Shown here: in pieces, positions 6,617 through 36,330 of the stretch
How the letters are laid out: every line of letters starts with the position of its first letter
Numbering within the stretch: position 1 is the first letter of the stretch
Origin: Candidatus Avelusimicrobium excrementipullorum
GTDB taxonomy: Bacteria > Elusimicrobiota > Elusimicrobia > Elusimicrobiales > Elusimicrobiaceae
NCBI GenBank assembly: GCA_019120455.1
Contig: DWVB01000042.1
Span: forward strand, 1-40,615
Length of the DNA: 40,615 bases
Direction of reading: 5' to 3'
The notes under the pieces: generated by a model
Seen by the model: only the letters and a program-made list of their open reading frames with translations
Told to the model about the DNA's origin: nothing
The model's database searches: none
Made by a program: the position numbers and the translations under genes

Positions 6617-8178
6617 TTTTCTTCTCTCCGCGCGTTATATTGCCCAGTGCCCATAGCATAGACATAGGGATTTTGAAAATGGGCCTTTTGGCTCTGCACA
6701 AAAGCCCCCGTCCCCTGCGCATAGCTTTTTTCCGGCAAATGCAGCACATCCCCGTTATAAACCCGCACCCCCATACTGCCGGGCACGGAGTAAAAATTAA
6801 TTCCGTCCGGCAGCGTCTGTCCTCTGCGCCCGTAAAACGTGATAGACGCGTCTCTGAACGCTTTAAGCATTTTTTGGTTCCCGCCTATATCACGCGGTGA
6901 AAGCAGAGCCATGCTGTCATTGTTAAATTCTTTCATCATGTTGTCGTAATACATTTTCAGCATGTCAGAAATATCTCTGTCGTTCAAAGTGCCGTCCTGC
7001 TCCACCATACGGCTGACCAGTCCCAGCCCGTAGCCGAAATTACTTTTTGATTTCGCGTCGTCCCTGCGAATATCGTCTATCACGCGGCTCATATACGGAA
7101 TAAGTTTTTTAACCTCTTCATAATATTCGCCTTTGGCGGGGTCTAAAATATAACTCACGCGTCCGTCCGGCCCCTGCTGAAAAGGTTTTGTCGCCAAATC
7201 ATTGAGCAGCTGCATTTGGGAAAATACGGAAAACGCCGGTATTTCCTCCCCCGCCTCTTCCATACGCTTAAATTCTTCCAAACGCATTTGCAACCCGACC
7301 ATTTCTTTTGCTTTTTCCATGGCATAAATCTGCGACTGCTGCAAATCCCAGCCCTTTTGCGTTTCTTCCTGCAATGCGCCGATTACTTTTTCCATATAAC
7401 GGAGATTTTTTTCATAAGTGGGCCAGTCCGTATTCTCCGAAGTCATCGTCATAGTGCCAAATCCGCTGGGATTTGCATTGTCTGCGCGGTTAAGCAGCAC
7501 GGTTTTGTTTTTGTATTCCTCATAAAACTGCTGCATTTCCACAGGCTGCAGACTGTCAAAATAGCGCGCGGCCCCTTCAGTCATAATTCTGCGGATTTGT
7601 TCTTTTGCCATAGCCTGTTGCTGCGGGGAAAGATACGCCTCCCCTCGCTCGTCACGCAAAGCCGTCAGCTCTTCCAAACCCAGAATGTCAAAACCGAAAG
7701 CCTCAATGCTGGCCCCCGCAGAAGCCAAATTGGGGCTGTAGAGGCTGGCGGCGTTTTCCCGCATATTGTTTAAGGTTAAATCCATTTTTTCAAAGGTACT
7801 CGTCTGCGCTTCTTCAAAGGTCTGTTTGTACAGGTTTTCCTTGGCCCTTTGCATATACGGCGCGGCCTGCACTTCAAAGCGCACCGCCGCTTCGCCGCGC
7901 TGCTGCCGGTCCGGCAGGGCCTTTAAAAGGTTTACGCGTATTTTCTGCTGCTCGGCCAGCAGCTGCCTGGGGTTGTTGCGGTTGCGCTCGTAGCTCTCCT
8001 GCAAAAGTTTGCGGCTTTCTATTTCAAAATGGTTTTGAAAGTTCTGCCGCGCCAGCTGTGCCGTGGCCTGGCCGATAGCCTCGCCGGTGCGCGCGACGCT
8101 GTTCAGCATGCGCGCCGTGTCAAAAGGTTTTACTTGCGGGATATCTCCCGCCGTGATTTGTCTTTTATACGGGGGCAT
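6613..8178 (-). CDS. Internal virion (ejection) protein, T7 gp15-like by position
   Basis: 521 residues, Gln/Glu/Arg-rich, with long predicted helices and coiled-coil character in residues 30-150. It lies between a gp14-like and a gp16-like gene, which is the T7 order of internal core proteins, so a role in the ejection apparatus is inferred from position rather than from sequence identity. Upstream TTG and GTG codons are open, but ATG at 8178 has a GAGGTG ribosome site just before it and follows the upstream stop by a few bases. It shares ATGA with the next gene. Confidence 0.6.
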   Translation of the reverse strand: MPPYKRQITAGDIPQVKPFDTARMLNSVARTGEAIGQATAQLARQNFQNHFEIESRKLLQESYERNRNNPRQLLAEQQKIRVNLLKALPDRQQRGEAAVRFEVQAAPYMQRAKENLYKQTFEEAQTSTFEKMDLTLNNMRENAASLYSPNLASAGASIEAFGFDILGLEELTALRDERGEAYLSPQQQAMAKEQIRRIMTEGAARYFDSLQPVEMQQFYEEYKNKTVLLNRADNANPSGFGTMTMTSENTDWPTYEKNLRYMEKVIGALQEETQKGWDLQQSQIYAMEKAKEMVGLQMRLEEFKRMEEAGEEIPAFSVFSQMQLLNDLATKPFQQGPDGRVSYILDPAKGEYYEEVKKLIPYMSRVIDDIRRDDAKSKSNFGYGLGLVSRMVEQDGTLNDRDISDMLKMYYDNMMKEFNNDSMALLSPRDIGGNQKMLKAFRDASITFYGRRGQTLPDGINFYSVPGSMGVRVYNGDVLHLPEKSYAQGTGAFVQSQKAHFQNPYVYAMGTGQYNARREEK

Positions 8179-25839: not shown

Positions 25840-26520
25840 CTAAAACAAACCGCCCACCTTCAGCATCACCGTTACATACTTATAGGTCGCGCTGACTTCC
25901 TGTTCTTTCAGCCGCGCCATATGATACCTTGCTTCCAATGACACCAAATCCGTCTCCGTGCGTTTTAATTCCATGCCCAGACCAATATATCCCGCCGGCC
26001 CCGCATCCGAATACTCCACACTACCATTATATTTAAAAGGAGCCTCCTTGAATGCCACATGCCCAGATAAACTCAATTCAGCATAAGAAAGTCCCGCCCC
26101 AAACGGAATATAAAACCGCATTTTACCCGCAGGATTTAAATGTAACCGTCCAGCCAGCATAGCATTAATAGAATAAGTTTTAGATTTTAATTTACCTTCT
26201 GCCGTAACATGCGGCGGATTGTAACCAGGTATATATAATGAGTCACTGAAGCTATGCTCCTCCGAAGTCAGTATGGCCGCTCCCAGTTCCATACCAAAAG
26301 CCCACCTCTCATTGACAAAATGTAAATACTGAAATTCAACATTTCCTCCAGTCTTCCCCCATTTTATATCTCCAGTATCTACATCCGTGAAAACACTATC
26401 CGCTACGCTTCCCATCGGCACCGCCGCGCCGACACCGACGGACAGCAAATTCTTATTCTCCTGCGCCGGCAGCCCGCTTGCCGCCAAAAGCACAGCCAAT
26501 AAACATATAACTTTTTTCAC
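25840..26520 (-). CDS. Prophage-encoded outer-membrane beta-barrel protein
   Basis: 226 residues starting at GTG (26520), which has AAGGAG five bases upstream; a GTG two codons earlier overlaps that site and is rejected. A signal peptide ends near residue 20 (GLPAQ). The mature part shows alternating strands ending in aromatic residues (VEFQYLHFV, WAFGMELGAA, YIPFGAGLSYAEL, YKYVTVMLKVGGLF), typical of small eight-stranded barrels of the OmpA/OmpW kind. In a prophage, such a gene may alter the lysogen surface or block other phages. It could also be captured host cargo. Confidence 0.7.
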   Translation of the reverse strand: MKKVICLLAVLLAASGLPAQENKNLLSVGVGAAVPMGSVADSVFTDVDTGDIKWGKTGGNVEFQYLHFVNERWAFGMELGAAILTSEEHSFSDSLYIPGYNPPHVTAEGKLKSKTYSINAMLAGRLHLNPAGKMRFYIPFGAGLSYAELSLSGHVAFKEAPFKYNGSVEYSDAGPAGYIGLGMELKRTETDLVSLEARYHMARLKEQEVSATYKYVTVMLKVGGLF

Positions 26521-26543
26521 ATTCACTCCTTATTTACAATAAA

Positions 26544-26569: not shown

Positions 26570-26582
26570 AAATTAACTACTA

Positions 26583-26603
26583 ATAATAAGCATTATGTTA
26601 ACT
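26583..26603. promoter_or_regulatory. Operator-like site O1
   Basis: A 21-base sequence that recurs, inverted and perfect, at 27069-27089 on the other side of the repressor gene. Its core ATAAT-N4-ATTAT is a dyad and it also contains GTTAAC. It lies just downstream of the start of the leftward promoter, so a bound repressor would block it. Confidence 0.6.
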
Positions 26604-26670: not shown

Positions 26671-27045
26671 ATGAAGATAAAAGAAACAGATAGATTAATT
26701 AAAAAAATAAAACTAGCTATGTTGGACGCAGGTTTAAATCAAGTTGCATTGGCCAAAAAATTAGGTATTTCTTCGACATCGGTTAGTCAGTGGCTTTCGG
26801 GAAAAACAAAACCCAAATATTCCACATTAGAGGCTCTCGGAAAAATCACCGACAAGCCCATCAATTATTTTTTTGACAATTCTGCCGACGTAAATGGCGA
26901 TCACAATATTGTGCAGTCTTCAGTCGGAGAAAGCCAAAACCATGACTTGCAAAAAGAAATCCAAATACTCAAAAAAGAACTGGAGGTACAACGGTATAAA
27001 CTGGAAAATTTGGAATTAAAAATAGAAAAAATTCAGAAAAAATAA
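26671..27045 (+). CDS. XRE-family repressor (cI-like)
   Basis: 124 residues. Helix-turn-helix at about 18-60 (LNQVALAKKLGISSTSVSQWLSG), a linker, then a coiled coil at about 90-124 (LQKEIQILKKELEVQRYKLENLELKIEKI), likely for dimerisation. It has no S24 peptidase domain, so induction should not depend on RecA-driven self-cleavage. It is the only XRE regulator in the element, lies at the divergence point, and is flanked by the two inverted operator-like sites. The ribosome site is weak (AAGAG). Confidence 0.8.
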   Translation: MKIKETDRLIKKIKLAMLDAGLNQVALAKKLGISSTSVSQWLSGKTKPKYSTLEALGKITDKPINYFFDNSADVNGDHNIVQSSVGESQNHDLQKEIQILKKELEVQRYKLENLELKIEKIQKK

Positions 27046-27068
27046 CAAGTCGTATGTCGCGGCGGGAA

Positions 27069-27100
27069 AGTTAACATAATGCTTATTATCATTAGATAAT
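27069..27100 (+). promoter_or_regulatory. Operator O2 and rightward promoter
   Basis: The inverted copy of O1 is at 27069-27089. It covers the -35 box TTAACA (27071-27076); an 18-base spacer leads to GATAAT (27095-27100). The expected start is near 27107. A partial third copy in O1 orientation (CATTATGTT-C-AACTAA) is at 27112-27126. Repressor binding here should shut off the structured RNA and early genes. Confidence 0.6.
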
Positions 27101-27106
27101 TTTTTT

Positions 27107-27610
27107 CCTTTCATTATGTTCAACTAAACAAGTTCTTTCAAAAACCGTTGCGCTGCCTTACACAGCGTTCATCCATAAGCGGACGCTTAACGCATAAAGT
27201 TACCTAAAACCCGTTAAGCGTGCACCTGCCGGAGATGGCGCAGACTTTTGGTCTGCGGTCCGGCTCGCGTAATTTAAGGTTACGCTCAAAGGGCACTTGT
27301 CCGCGTTTACGCCCCCACGGGTTCTACTTCCGCCTCCTTAAATGACGAAAGTTTATGCCAGGGGCTTCCAAAAACTTGGCCATAATATGACCTCCTTTTT
27401 GGACTTGGGGGAAGGCGCGACCTCCCCCGCAAAACGGTTTTTGAAGAACATCCGGCGCAGGATGGCAACCCGCGAACGGTGCCCCCCAAAAGGGGCGGAG
27501 ACGTACGGCAAAAAAATCTGTACCAAAAAGAGGGCAACCTCTTTTCGTGCGTCTCCAAAAGCGAGTATCGGCGCAGCCACGCCAACCAAGATACTCGCTT
27601 TTATTTTATC
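27107..27610 (+). ncRNA. Large structured non-coding RNA A (about 500 nt), family unknown
   Basis: No plausible gene lies here on either strand, and helices are dense. Examples: CGCTG/CAGCG (27151-27167); a perfect ten-pair stem (27183-27192 with 27212-27221); GCCGGA/TCCGGC (27228-27233 with 27259-27264) enclosing GCAGAC/GTCTGC (27240-27256); GCGTAA/TTACGC (27267-27285); an eight-pair stem (27367-27374 with 27396-27403); GGAGACG/CGTCTCC (27497-27503 with 27550-27556) enclosing an eight-pair hairpin closed by a GCAA tetraloop (27526-27545). It ends in a clear intrinsic terminator. Size and setting recall phage RNAs such as ROOL and GOLLD, but I cannot show membership. Confidence 0.65.
27559..27610 (+). 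terminator. Terminator of structured RNA A
   Basis: Ten-pair stem (27559-27568 with 27591-27600) with a smaller GGCG/CGCC hairpin in its loop, followed by TTATTTTAT. It ends the non-coding unit about 30 bases before the next gene, so early genes beyond need read-through or antitermination. Confidence 0.75.
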
Positions 27611-27641
27611 AAAAATAGTTATTTCGCGGAGCATAAAAAAT

Positions 27642-27842
27642 ATGAACGAAAAACAGGAAACCAAAAGCGACTTTTTGGACACCAAGCAAGCCGCCGCCCT
27701 GTTGGGCGTTACCCCGCAGATGATACGCGCCGCCGCGCGCGCAGGCATGATTAAAGCGTATCATCCCTTTTCCGGCTGCACCAAATATATCTTCAAAGCG
27801 GACGAACTGAAAGCCGGCATCATCCCCGCGGAGGACTTATGA
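27642..27842 (+). CDS. Excisionase-like / helix-turn-helix_17 protein
   Basis: 66 residues with a winged helix-turn-helix start (DFLDTKQAAALLGVTPQMIRAA, about 10-31), typical of MerR-like excisionases and small phage regulators. As the first coding gene of the rightward operon, it may be the excisionase or an early regulator. GGAG lies upstream of the ATG. Longer in-frame extension into the RNA region is rejected. Confidence 0.65.
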   Translation: MNEKQETKSDFLDTKQAAALLGVTPQMIRAAARAGMIKAYHPFSGCTKYIFKADELKAGIIPAEDL

Positions 27843-32858: not shown

Positions 32859-33073
32859 ATCCGACAACGATGAACGAAATTATCCAGGCCGTGCAGCGGG
32901 CGCGGAAGAAACACCCGCACTTTGCGGCAACGGCTTGGGAAGCGGTCAGCCTGGCGAGCGAAGAGCTGGGAGAGTTTGCCAGGGCGGTAAACGAGGATAA
33001 CCGCAGCCAGGCCGAGGAAGAAGCCCTGGACACGATAGCGGTGCTGGTGCGGTTTTTGGAGTTGGATTTATGA
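32855..33073 (+). CDS. MazG-like small all-alpha protein
   Basis: 72 residues starting at GTG with AAGGAGG upstream. The pattern SLASEELGEFARAVNED...EEEALDTIAVLVRFLEL resembles the metal-binding helices of MazG-type nucleotide pyrophosphohydrolases (EExxE then EExxD). It may clean up or adjust nucleotide pools. It is short for the family, so activity is not certain. Confidence 0.6.
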   Translation: MNPTTMNEIIQAVQRARKKHPHFAATAWEAVSLASEELGEFARAVNEDNRSQAEEEALDTIAVLVRFLELDL

Positions 33074-35032: not shown

Positions 35033-35344
35033 ATGAGCGAAAAAGAAAAAAGAATTTTGATTTTGACGGATACGGACCCGATAGGGCTGTGTGATAAGGC
35101 GCACGCTTTCCAATACGATTTTTGCCCTTTTACGGGAAACGGGAAGAAGACGTGCCGAGAGGTGTGCGGGTTGGGCCTTCCCCGCTCCGAGGCCGTGGAG
35201 CGGATGGCTGCGGCCATGTGTATGCGGGCAAACAGAATATTTGACTGCACCGACTGTTTAACCGCTGCCAAAGGAGACTGCGAAGTAAGGCTGTATCACA
35301 ATATGGCCGTTGCCGCCCTGGACGCGCTGATAAAAGAAATATGA
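35033..35344 (+). CDS. 103-residue Cys-rich protein upstream of integrase
   Basis: Begins MSEKEKRILILTDTDPIGLC and holds seven further cysteines, including CPFTG, CREVC and CTDC clusters, so a metal centre is likely. ATGA couples it to the integrase gene. Family unknown. Confidence 0.5.
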   Translation: MSEKEKRILILTDTDPIGLCDKAHAFQYDFCPFTGNGKKTCREVCGLGLPRSEAVERMAAAMCMRANRIFDCTDCLTAAKGDCEVRLYHNMAVAALDALIKEI

Positions 35345-36330
35345 GAATTTACACCGATCCCCGTACCGGCATGAAATACGCCGATTATGTCCTGCAGGGC
35401 AAGCGCCGTAGGAAATCTTTGCACACGAAAAATAATCAGGTGGCCATCATGCGCGCCGCAACCTTGGATACTGATAAAACAATCCAAGAAACGACAAAAA
35501 TGCCTTTTAGCGTATTTTTGGCAAAATACCGTGCTTACATTGCAGCCAATCTGGCCCCTAATTCCATATCCAGCTTTGAATACGCAGTAGAAAAGTTACA
35601 GTCCACCCTGTCCATCCGCTATGTCCAGGATATAACCCCACGCGCGTTGGAACAGCTTAAACTTACATTGAAATCACAAGATTATAAACCTGTATCCATA
35701 AATAGTTATCTAACCCTTCTAAAAGGAATGCTTTATTATGCCGAAAGGGAAAACATCCTTCCGCCCCTTCCTTGGAAAAGCGTCAAAAAACTGCGTGCCC
35801 CCAAGGGACGCGTGGAGTTTCATTCTCCGCAGGAAATAGCCGCCATATTGGCCCTGCATACCTCTATATCCTGGAAATTAGTCGTCTTGCTCGGTGTCCG
35901 GGCCGGATTGCGCGCAGCAGAAATCAACAGCCTTAAATGGCAGGACGTGGATTTATCCCGCCGACAAATTTATATTGCCCCCAGCAAAACAGAACGTTTC
36001 CGTTTGGTGCCAATTTCTCAAGATTTATATAATATGTTACAATCAGTCAAGGTTCGTCAAGCCGATGAATATGTTATCGGAGACTGGCATTATAATACAG
36101 TACGTTCTTTGTGCTCCACATATCGGAGTACCACAAAAAAGCTGGGCCTTCATTGCCATTTACATAAACTGAGACATACTTTTGCCAGTCATTTGGCCCA
36201 GGCCGGAGTGGATTTATACCGCATATCCAAACTGCTGGGGCATAGCAGTATCCAAATGACAGAAATTTACGCACATTTATCCCCATCCGACATGCCCGGA
36301 GCCATAGAAAAATTGCCGGAAATAAAATAG
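35341..36330 (+). CDS. int: Tyrosine-recombinase integrase
   Basis: 329 residues. A short N-terminal part, core-binding domain (about 55-140) and catalytic domain (about 160-320). Active residues: Arg191 (AGLRAAEIN), Lys216 (SKTERF), His275 and Arg278 (HKLRHTFASH), His301 (LGHSSIQ) and nucleophile Tyr310 (TEIYAHL). It integrates and excises the prophage. It ends 15 bases before the right attachment core, as usual. It is the last gene of the long rightward early series. Confidence 0.92.
   Translation: MRIYTDPRTGMKYADYVLQGKRRRKSLHTKNNQVAIMRAATLDTDKTIQETTKMPFSVFLAKYRAYIAANLAPNSISSFEYAVEKLQSTLSIRYVQDITPRALEQLKLTLKSQDYKPVSINSYLTLLKGMLYYAERENILPPLPWKSVKKLRAPKGRVEFHSPQEIAAILALHTSISWKLVVLLGVRAGLRAAEINSLKWQDVDLSRRQIYIAPSKTERFRLVPISQDLYNMLQSVKVRQADEYVIGDWHYNTVRSLCSTYRSTTKKLGLHCHLHKLRHTFASHLAQAGVDLYRISKLLGHSSIQMTEIYAHLSPSDMPGAIEKLPEIK

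Follow-up and report, generated by a model that had tools for sequence, protein, structure and literature searches.

Domain IVa of group II introns is a hairpin that holds the Shine-Dalgarno (SD) sequence and start of the intron ORF. The ROOL and GOLLD RNAs are set in tRNA islands (PMC12286853), and RNA-based replication origins occur in extrachromosomal mycobacterial prophages (PMC7157519). Here we analyzed positions 27107–27610 of a 40,615-nucleotide contig (the whole stretch is called the window), which form part of a prophage in an Elusimicrobiota (Elusimicrobiales) genome (G000:C90). As judged from its homologues, 27129–27452 on the minus strand belongs to a new family of structured RNAs of ~320–370 nt. 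To our knowledge, no phage RNA has been described in the phylum Elusimicrobiota, and a literature search found none; the locus gives this phylum a family of large structured RNAs backed by covariation and assigned to a strand. It is a new RNA family of kinds already known, namely ornate phage RNA and structured dual-function RNA.

Anatomy of the interval

The interval is bordered on its left by late genes, a beta-barrel protein gene (25840–26526) and an HTH repressor gene, and on its right by an HTH/excisionase-like gene beginning at 27642, an Erf-like annealing protein gene and an exonuclease gene; an integrase-like gene (35341–36330) lies at the right end of the window. Gene names of the S24, restriction–modification (R-M), IS3 and integrase types were read from sequence by eye, without family search. 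The preliminary description had proposed a single plus-strand, terminator-ended RNA of about 500 nt, and the helices that it named are indeed present: the stem GCTTAACG/CGTTAAGC at 27185–27219, the GCAA-loop hairpin AAAAGAGG-GCAA-CCUCUUUU and the terminator at 27557–27602. The plus-strand fold of 27107–27610 reaches −196.4 kcal/mol (z = −8.3), with none of 100 shuffles as low. Its view of a structured RNA that could be placed in neither ROOL nor GOLLD also held, as did its report of no matching gene, the interval containing no database-recognized gene or RNA family. The covariance-model search that it had named as a check (ROOL, GOLLD, HEARO, raiA, OLE) was negative: Rfam 15 models gave no match at gathering score in the whole window and none at E ≤ 1 for 26900–27800, and by covariance model the interval belongs neither to these families nor to any other in Rfam 15. 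The same models gave no match at E ≤ 1 in loci L064–L067 and just two unrelated sub-threshold matches in nine other loci; no group I or group II intron catalytic core was found by Rfam in any of these sequences. ARAGORN recognized no tRNA or tmRNA in the RNA and zero tRNAs in the 40.6-kb window.

The idea of one plus-strand molecule gave way under comparison with relatives. By distribution and strand, the interval is two separable parts on opposite strands, a domain conserved on the minus strand (27129–27452) and a separate 3′ module (27450–27608), not a single plus-strand RNA (Table 1). The first domain spans ~320 nt and is closed by its own 17-bp stem. In a DNA search among relatives, the match in L002 (G042) begins at 27450, with the first domain absent and the breakpoint exactly at the end of the closing stem, and the matches in L003, L004, L005 and L010 fall inside the first domain. 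Loci L032–L034 and L037–L039 lack the first domain but have the 3′ module and terminator ahead of the first early gene; in L032 and L039 two small convergent ORFs take the domain's place. The occurrence of ORFs or RNA at this place, together with the presence and absence of the domain among relatives, marks the stretch from the promoter to the 3′ module as an accessory-cargo slot. The convergent ORFs (37 and 74 aa, at about 1170–1500 of L032/L039) have no Pfam match, and the 74-aa ORF has no PHROG match either.

Table 1. Coordinates of the features of the locus in the window
Feature	Position	Strand	Remarks
Left operator arm, inverted copy	26570–26603	−	Dyad copy
HTH_3 phage repressor-like protein, C-terminal coiled coil	26671–27045	+	34% identical to its homologue, the HTH gene that follows the RNA in L067
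Right operator arm	27069–27102	+	Dyad ATAATGCTTATTAT at 27076–27089
Predicted sigma-70 promoter of the early transcript, TTAACA-18-GATAAT	27071–27100	+	10 of 12 matches; consensus match only
Large structured RNA domain, new family	27129–27452	−	5′ to 3′ from 27452 to 27129; covariance-model homologues in four lineages, shared MFE fold plan, covariation, strand test
P1 closing stem, 3′ strand	27132–27149	−	Window fold
P2 multibranch domain	27179–27304	−	Derived from MFE folds rather than a fitted alignment
Helix A with inner hairpin	27311–27365	−	3 of 5 outer pairs changed on both sides
Short frame MAKFLEAPGINFRHLRRRK, stop-ended	27324–27383	−	Starts in hairpin B
Hairpin B	27367–27403	−	8-bp outer stem, GGA/AAG internal loop, 6-bp inner stem; contains SD and AUG
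AGGAGGU, SD-like sequence	27390–27396	−	Identical in four lineages
Hairpin C	27405–27432	−	Kept in L003–L005; reduced or missing in L055 and L067
P1 closing stem, 5′ strand	27433–27449	−	17 bp with 27132–27149; long-range stems of other sequence in L004, L055 and L067
3′ module	27450–27608	+	Two small hairpins, long stem with GCAA-capped branch, intrinsic terminator; early-operon leader
Intrinsic terminator AAAAGCGAGTATC...GATACTCGCTTTT	27557–27608	+	13-bp stem (27557–27602), T-rich tail
First early gene, HTH_17/excisionase-like DNA-binding protein	27642–27842	+	Family search

Apart from the window, 10 loci of the genus have the 3′ module immediately ahead of the first early gene. Its fold z-scores range from −5.4 to −10.2 (ten sequences), its loops are A-rich on the plus strand (45–54%) and U-rich on the minus strand, and the sole helix pair that differs between the window and L002 is compensatory. 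Comparison of these loci shows a separate, terminator-ended leader of predicted structure. The first early gene starts 33 nt past the terminator, and early expression must therefore pass the terminator or start within the module. We infer that the module may act as an attenuator or antitermination element of the early operon; its position before gene 27642 fits that of a put-like antiterminator.

Several further observations concern the plus strand. Upstream of the first early gene, its reading frame stays open across the entire 3′ module (27342–27842); protein coding by this extension was rejected, as homologues have no common open plus frame, and it was treated as chance read-through. The plus-strand 5′ arm of P1 (27131–27141) reads GTTCTTTCAAA in both the window and L067, a sequence that we take to resemble rRNA boxA and that might serve the early transcript as an antitermination signal. 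A CRISPR array in a sister genome (L036/L107, G011:C9; repeat GTTCCTATTAGGCACCGAAGAATAAGGTAGAATTTA) carries at least two spacers against the 3′ module, one of them exact to L037, and one spacer exact to the window at about 32981–33010. The sequences 3′ of three protospacers (ggcaaact, ggcaaaca and cggaaata) suggest a PAM near NGNAAA for this array.

Homologues, fold and strand of the minus-strand RNA

Covariance-model searches placed homologues of 27129–27452 in four diverged lineages, all Elusimicrobiota: the window prophage, three sister prophages (L003, L004 and L005; E ~1e-38), L055 from another family of the phylum, and L067 from a prophage of a third family. L055 was matched at E 4.8e-6 by model R1, built for the conserved stretch from plus-strand sequences and not containing L055, and L067 at E 1.3e-6 by model R2, a minus-strand model that includes L055 and not L067. 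P1, the SD/AUG hairpin B, helix A and the P2 multibranch were found together on one strand in the window, L003–L005, L055 and L067. These matches show a family scattered sporadically in Elusimicrobiota and mostly borne by prophages. As far as searched, it appears confined to this phylum: model R3 found nothing in samples of 395 and 398 genomes from the phyla of two other loci (Bacteroidota and Bacillota by title), a weak negative with 8 candidates scored per genome. A blastn search of a phage collection gave zero matches, and four pattern scans of viral contigs either came back empty or hit ordinary gene starts or an unrelated phage gene (L058). Covariance-model matches in L051, L052, L056 and L068–L078 were left uncounted, L056/L079 being inside the coding sequence of a chromosomal operon and the rest weak. 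Likewise, 14 matches to CTTCCAAAAAYTTGGCCAT outside Elusimicrobiota lacked an SD, were mostly within unrelated coding sequence and were dropped as chance.

Independent minus-strand MFE folds of the window, L004, L055 and L067 gave one plan, consisting of P1, hairpin C, hairpin B, helix A and the P2 multibranch. P1 and P2 differ in sequence in each lineage with their pairing kept; the P2 closing pairs are GCGGAC/GUCCGC in the window and GCAGGC/GCCUGC, CCAUGG/CCAUGG and UCUUGUUGA/UCAACAAGA in the other lineages. Hairpin B is the most conserved piece of the family RNA. One of its inner pairs is C-G, G-C or A-U across lineages, another varies as AU/GC, and the pair beside the former is U-G in every lineage, a mismatch if read on the plus strand. 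Covariation among homologues, which the preliminary description had proposed to look for, was found in the covariance-model alignment (A5), where 12 of 25 pairs are changed on both sides vs 4.4 ± 1.5 in shuffles (0/500 as high), small counts drawn from four lineages only, one of them with three close sequences. In the same alignment, some of whose sequences had gone into the model used to fit it so that it leans towards structure, 95.9% of cells are paired, compared with 29–60% in slid controls. Unconstrained RNAalifold returned the same helices, with double changes in 17 of 33 pairs.

Strong folding on one strand does not tell which strand is the gene, as the complementary strand folds nearly as well. 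The strand test on a MAFFT alignment made on the plus strand (A6) gave −8.2 kcal/mol for plus vs −27.2 for its exact reverse complement; on A5 it gave −34.7 for minus vs −17.9 for plus, and the minus structure of A5 contains 23 G-U cells vs 2 A-C cells. Full-length energy was lower on the minus strand in 6 of 6 sequences, and unpaired bases were clearly A-richer on this strand in L055 and L067 and about equal in the others. The strand tests and the G-U excess together indicate a conserved RNA of 27129–27452 on the minus strand.

The preliminary description had also seen no credible gene in the interval. It was right that no recognized gene lies there, but the minus strand has AGGAGGT, an optimally spaced ATG and a short frame (27383–27324) kept in position in four lineages. 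In all of them UUAUG follows AGGAGGU, the AUG standing 5–8 nt past AGGAGG. Counterparts of the window frame (19 codons) are MAKFLEAPCMG in L004, MSAKFLEVPKIGSSQISN in L055 and MLLKLLNSADIL in L067 (11, 18 and 12 codons), each ended by a stop; the frames differ in length and, past the first codons, in sequence, and the AUG position within the hairpin varies among lineages. The alignment of lineages shows that hairpin B hides a perfect SD sequence and an AUG opening a frame of 11–19 codons, from which we infer that the frame may be translated; alternatively, what is conserved at this site may be an RNA motif with no more than a resemblance to an SD. We hold the structural claim, a new family on the minus strand with a buried SD/AUG, with high confidence. 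With a translation start buried where this ornate prophage RNA is most conserved, the role of such RNAs becomes testable, namely whether their partner is the ribosome. Read on the plus strand, AGGAGGU (27390–27396) is ACCUCCU, the 16S rRNA anti-SD sequence, and may be a decoy. CreT is a rare-codon toxin; a CreT-like toxin was rejected here, as the window frame ends AGG AGG CGG and the other three do not.

Promoters, operators and genomic settings

The preliminary description had linked the interval to the repressor and to a promoter overlapping an operator-like site. Both points were borne out by the repressor-like gene next to the interval and by a consensus-matching promoter that overlaps an exact dyad, ATAATGCTTATTAT. 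The promoter points into 27129–27452 from the 3′ side of the RNA. A plus-strand transcript of 27107–27608 is likely on induction, and over 27129–27452 it would be antisense to the conserved RNA. Equivalently placed and oriented promoter-like sites, likewise consensus matches, occur in L004, L005 and L067; the promoter-like match in L055 is one expected by chance in AT-rich DNA, and the antisense layout is assigned to the other loci only. Plus-strand promoters are clear, whereas no minus-strand consensus promoter was found ahead of the RNA in the window, L004 or L005, and this is the weakest point of our reading. The window has just two copies of the dyad (ATAATGCTTATTAT/ATAATNNNNATTAT), one to either side of the repressor gene. 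The 34-nt inverted arms around the dyad copies, which flank this gene, are 91% identical, with 21 nt exact. They may be just two operators, or the flanked repressor segment may invert; inversion would turn a TTGACA-17-TAAAAT promoter (26643–26615) towards the early operon.

The next gene on the RNA's strand is close by in L003–L005, L067 and L055. It is an S24-type repressor in L003–L005 (by eye, read for L005). The L067 RNA lies between two HTH genes of a prophage; the downstream one is a 34%-identical homologue of the window repressor, the window gene being reversed relative to it, and a secreted/outer-membrane-like gene follows, as in the window. A bidirectional terminator-like hairpin (L101, about 7900–7980) lies between the upstream HTH gene and the RNA in that prophage, which suggests that this RNA is a transcription unit of its own. 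The L055 copy is chromosomal, beside an R-M system and without a phage setting: it comes after a methyltransferase gene, itself after a probable restriction enzyme gene, with an IS3-like transposase nearby and a membrane-protein gene following. An RNA-based replication origin is disfavored, given the integrase-like gene in the window (L060 likewise) and the chromosomal L055.

Competing readings and known systems

As the best explanation we tentatively propose a dual-function, translation-gated RNA of the lysogeny strand that is opposed by the lytic early transcript. The minus RNA would be transcribed in the lysogenic direction, and its folding would keep the SD/AUG start site shut; an opened site would admit a ribosome, which would make the mini-peptide or merely occupy the RNA. 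The repressor-controlled early promoter, positioned at the 3′ end of the RNA in the window, L003–L005 and L067, would fire into it, and on induction the fully complementary early leader would pair with the minus RNA and switch it off. It is rather unlikely that the family also represents a new class of ribosome-engaging ornate RNA, a mobile Elusimicrobiota accessory found in prophages and beside an R-M system, whose folded core presents or withholds a perfect SD/AUG and which is silenced on induction by a fully complementary lytic early transcript; if true, the two would make up an RNA-level lysis/lysogeny or host-fitness switch.

The large, multibranched fold, the variable periphery around a conserved core and the mostly prophage setting would equally suit a stand-alone noncoding RNA of ROOL/GOLLD type, in which the SD-like purine run and UUAUG serve as a motif for structure or ribosome docking, with the peptide irrelevant. 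The variation of the frame in length and most residues and the conservation of the internal loop GGA/AAR itself point the same way, whereas the 5–8-nt AGGAGG–AUG spacing and a frame kept in four lineages despite the shifting AUG position argue against it; we regard this reading as a serious but somewhat doubtful possibility. Alternatively, the RNA might be the 5′ leader of a downstream minus-strand gene, with a leader-peptide ORF, an attenuator-like structure and PRE-like establishment logic, as it lies close upstream of and in line with the S24-type repressor in L003–L005, the HTH repressor in L067 and the membrane protein in L055. This is distinctly unlikely: the repressor's own operator/promoter region intervenes in L003–L005 and L067, the downstream genes are unrelated to each other, and the adjacent repressor of the window faces the opposite way, unless the operator-flanked segment inverts.

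Very little probability falls to one plus-strand RNA of ~500 nt, starting at the repressed early promoter and ending at the 27608 terminator, as the functional molecule. Promoter, operator and terminator all point plus, the plus fold is strong, and in L067 a divergent promoter fires into the domain with a terminator-like hairpin beyond; the strand tests, however, favor minus for 27129–27452, and the 3′ module occurs without the domain and, in L055, the domain without the module. Less credence still is given to a pair resembling type I toxin–antitoxin systems, with the minus RNA as structured toxin mRNA and the plus early leader as antisense. The SD buried in structure, the 5′–3′ closing stem and the short ORF would fit, as would an antisense promoter at one end, predicted from repressor-linked consensus matches in the right place in the window, L004, L005 and L067. 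Yet the 11–19-residue peptides are not membrane-spanning in character, and none of MAKFLEAPGINFRHLRRRK, MAKFLEAPCMG, MSAKFLEVPKIGSSQISN and MLLKLLNSADIL is a short hydrophobic toxin; the antisense promoter would be under repression in the lysogen, the opposite of what an antitoxin requires, and the antisense arrangement is not kept in L055.

Set beside known systems, the proposed translation-gated RNA resembles ROOL and GOLLD as a large multibranched prophage RNA with a conserved core, a variable periphery and no evident function. It differs in size (320–370 nt vs ~580–800+), in matching no Rfam model at E ≤ 1, in carrying the buried SD/AUG hairpin and in having no nearby tRNA genes (ARAGORN, 40.6-kb window). 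With the type I toxin mRNAs hok, aapA1 and tisB it shares long-range 5′–3′ pairing, a buried SD, a short ORF and a predicted antisense transcript over the locus, whereas its mini-frames are shorter and not hydrophobic, its antisense promoter is repressor-controlled and the partner relation is not conserved. The 3′ module is comparable by position to the put antiterminators of HK022, as it opens the early operon ahead of a strong terminator, but is far larger, has its own terminator at its end and is unrelated in sequence to any Rfam family. Hairpin B recalls domain IVa of group II introns, where a hairpin with an internal loop likewise conceals an SD and start codon within a large RNA fold; hairpin B, by comparison, stands without domain V or intron core (no Rfam match), without a reverse transcriptase and in another domain order.
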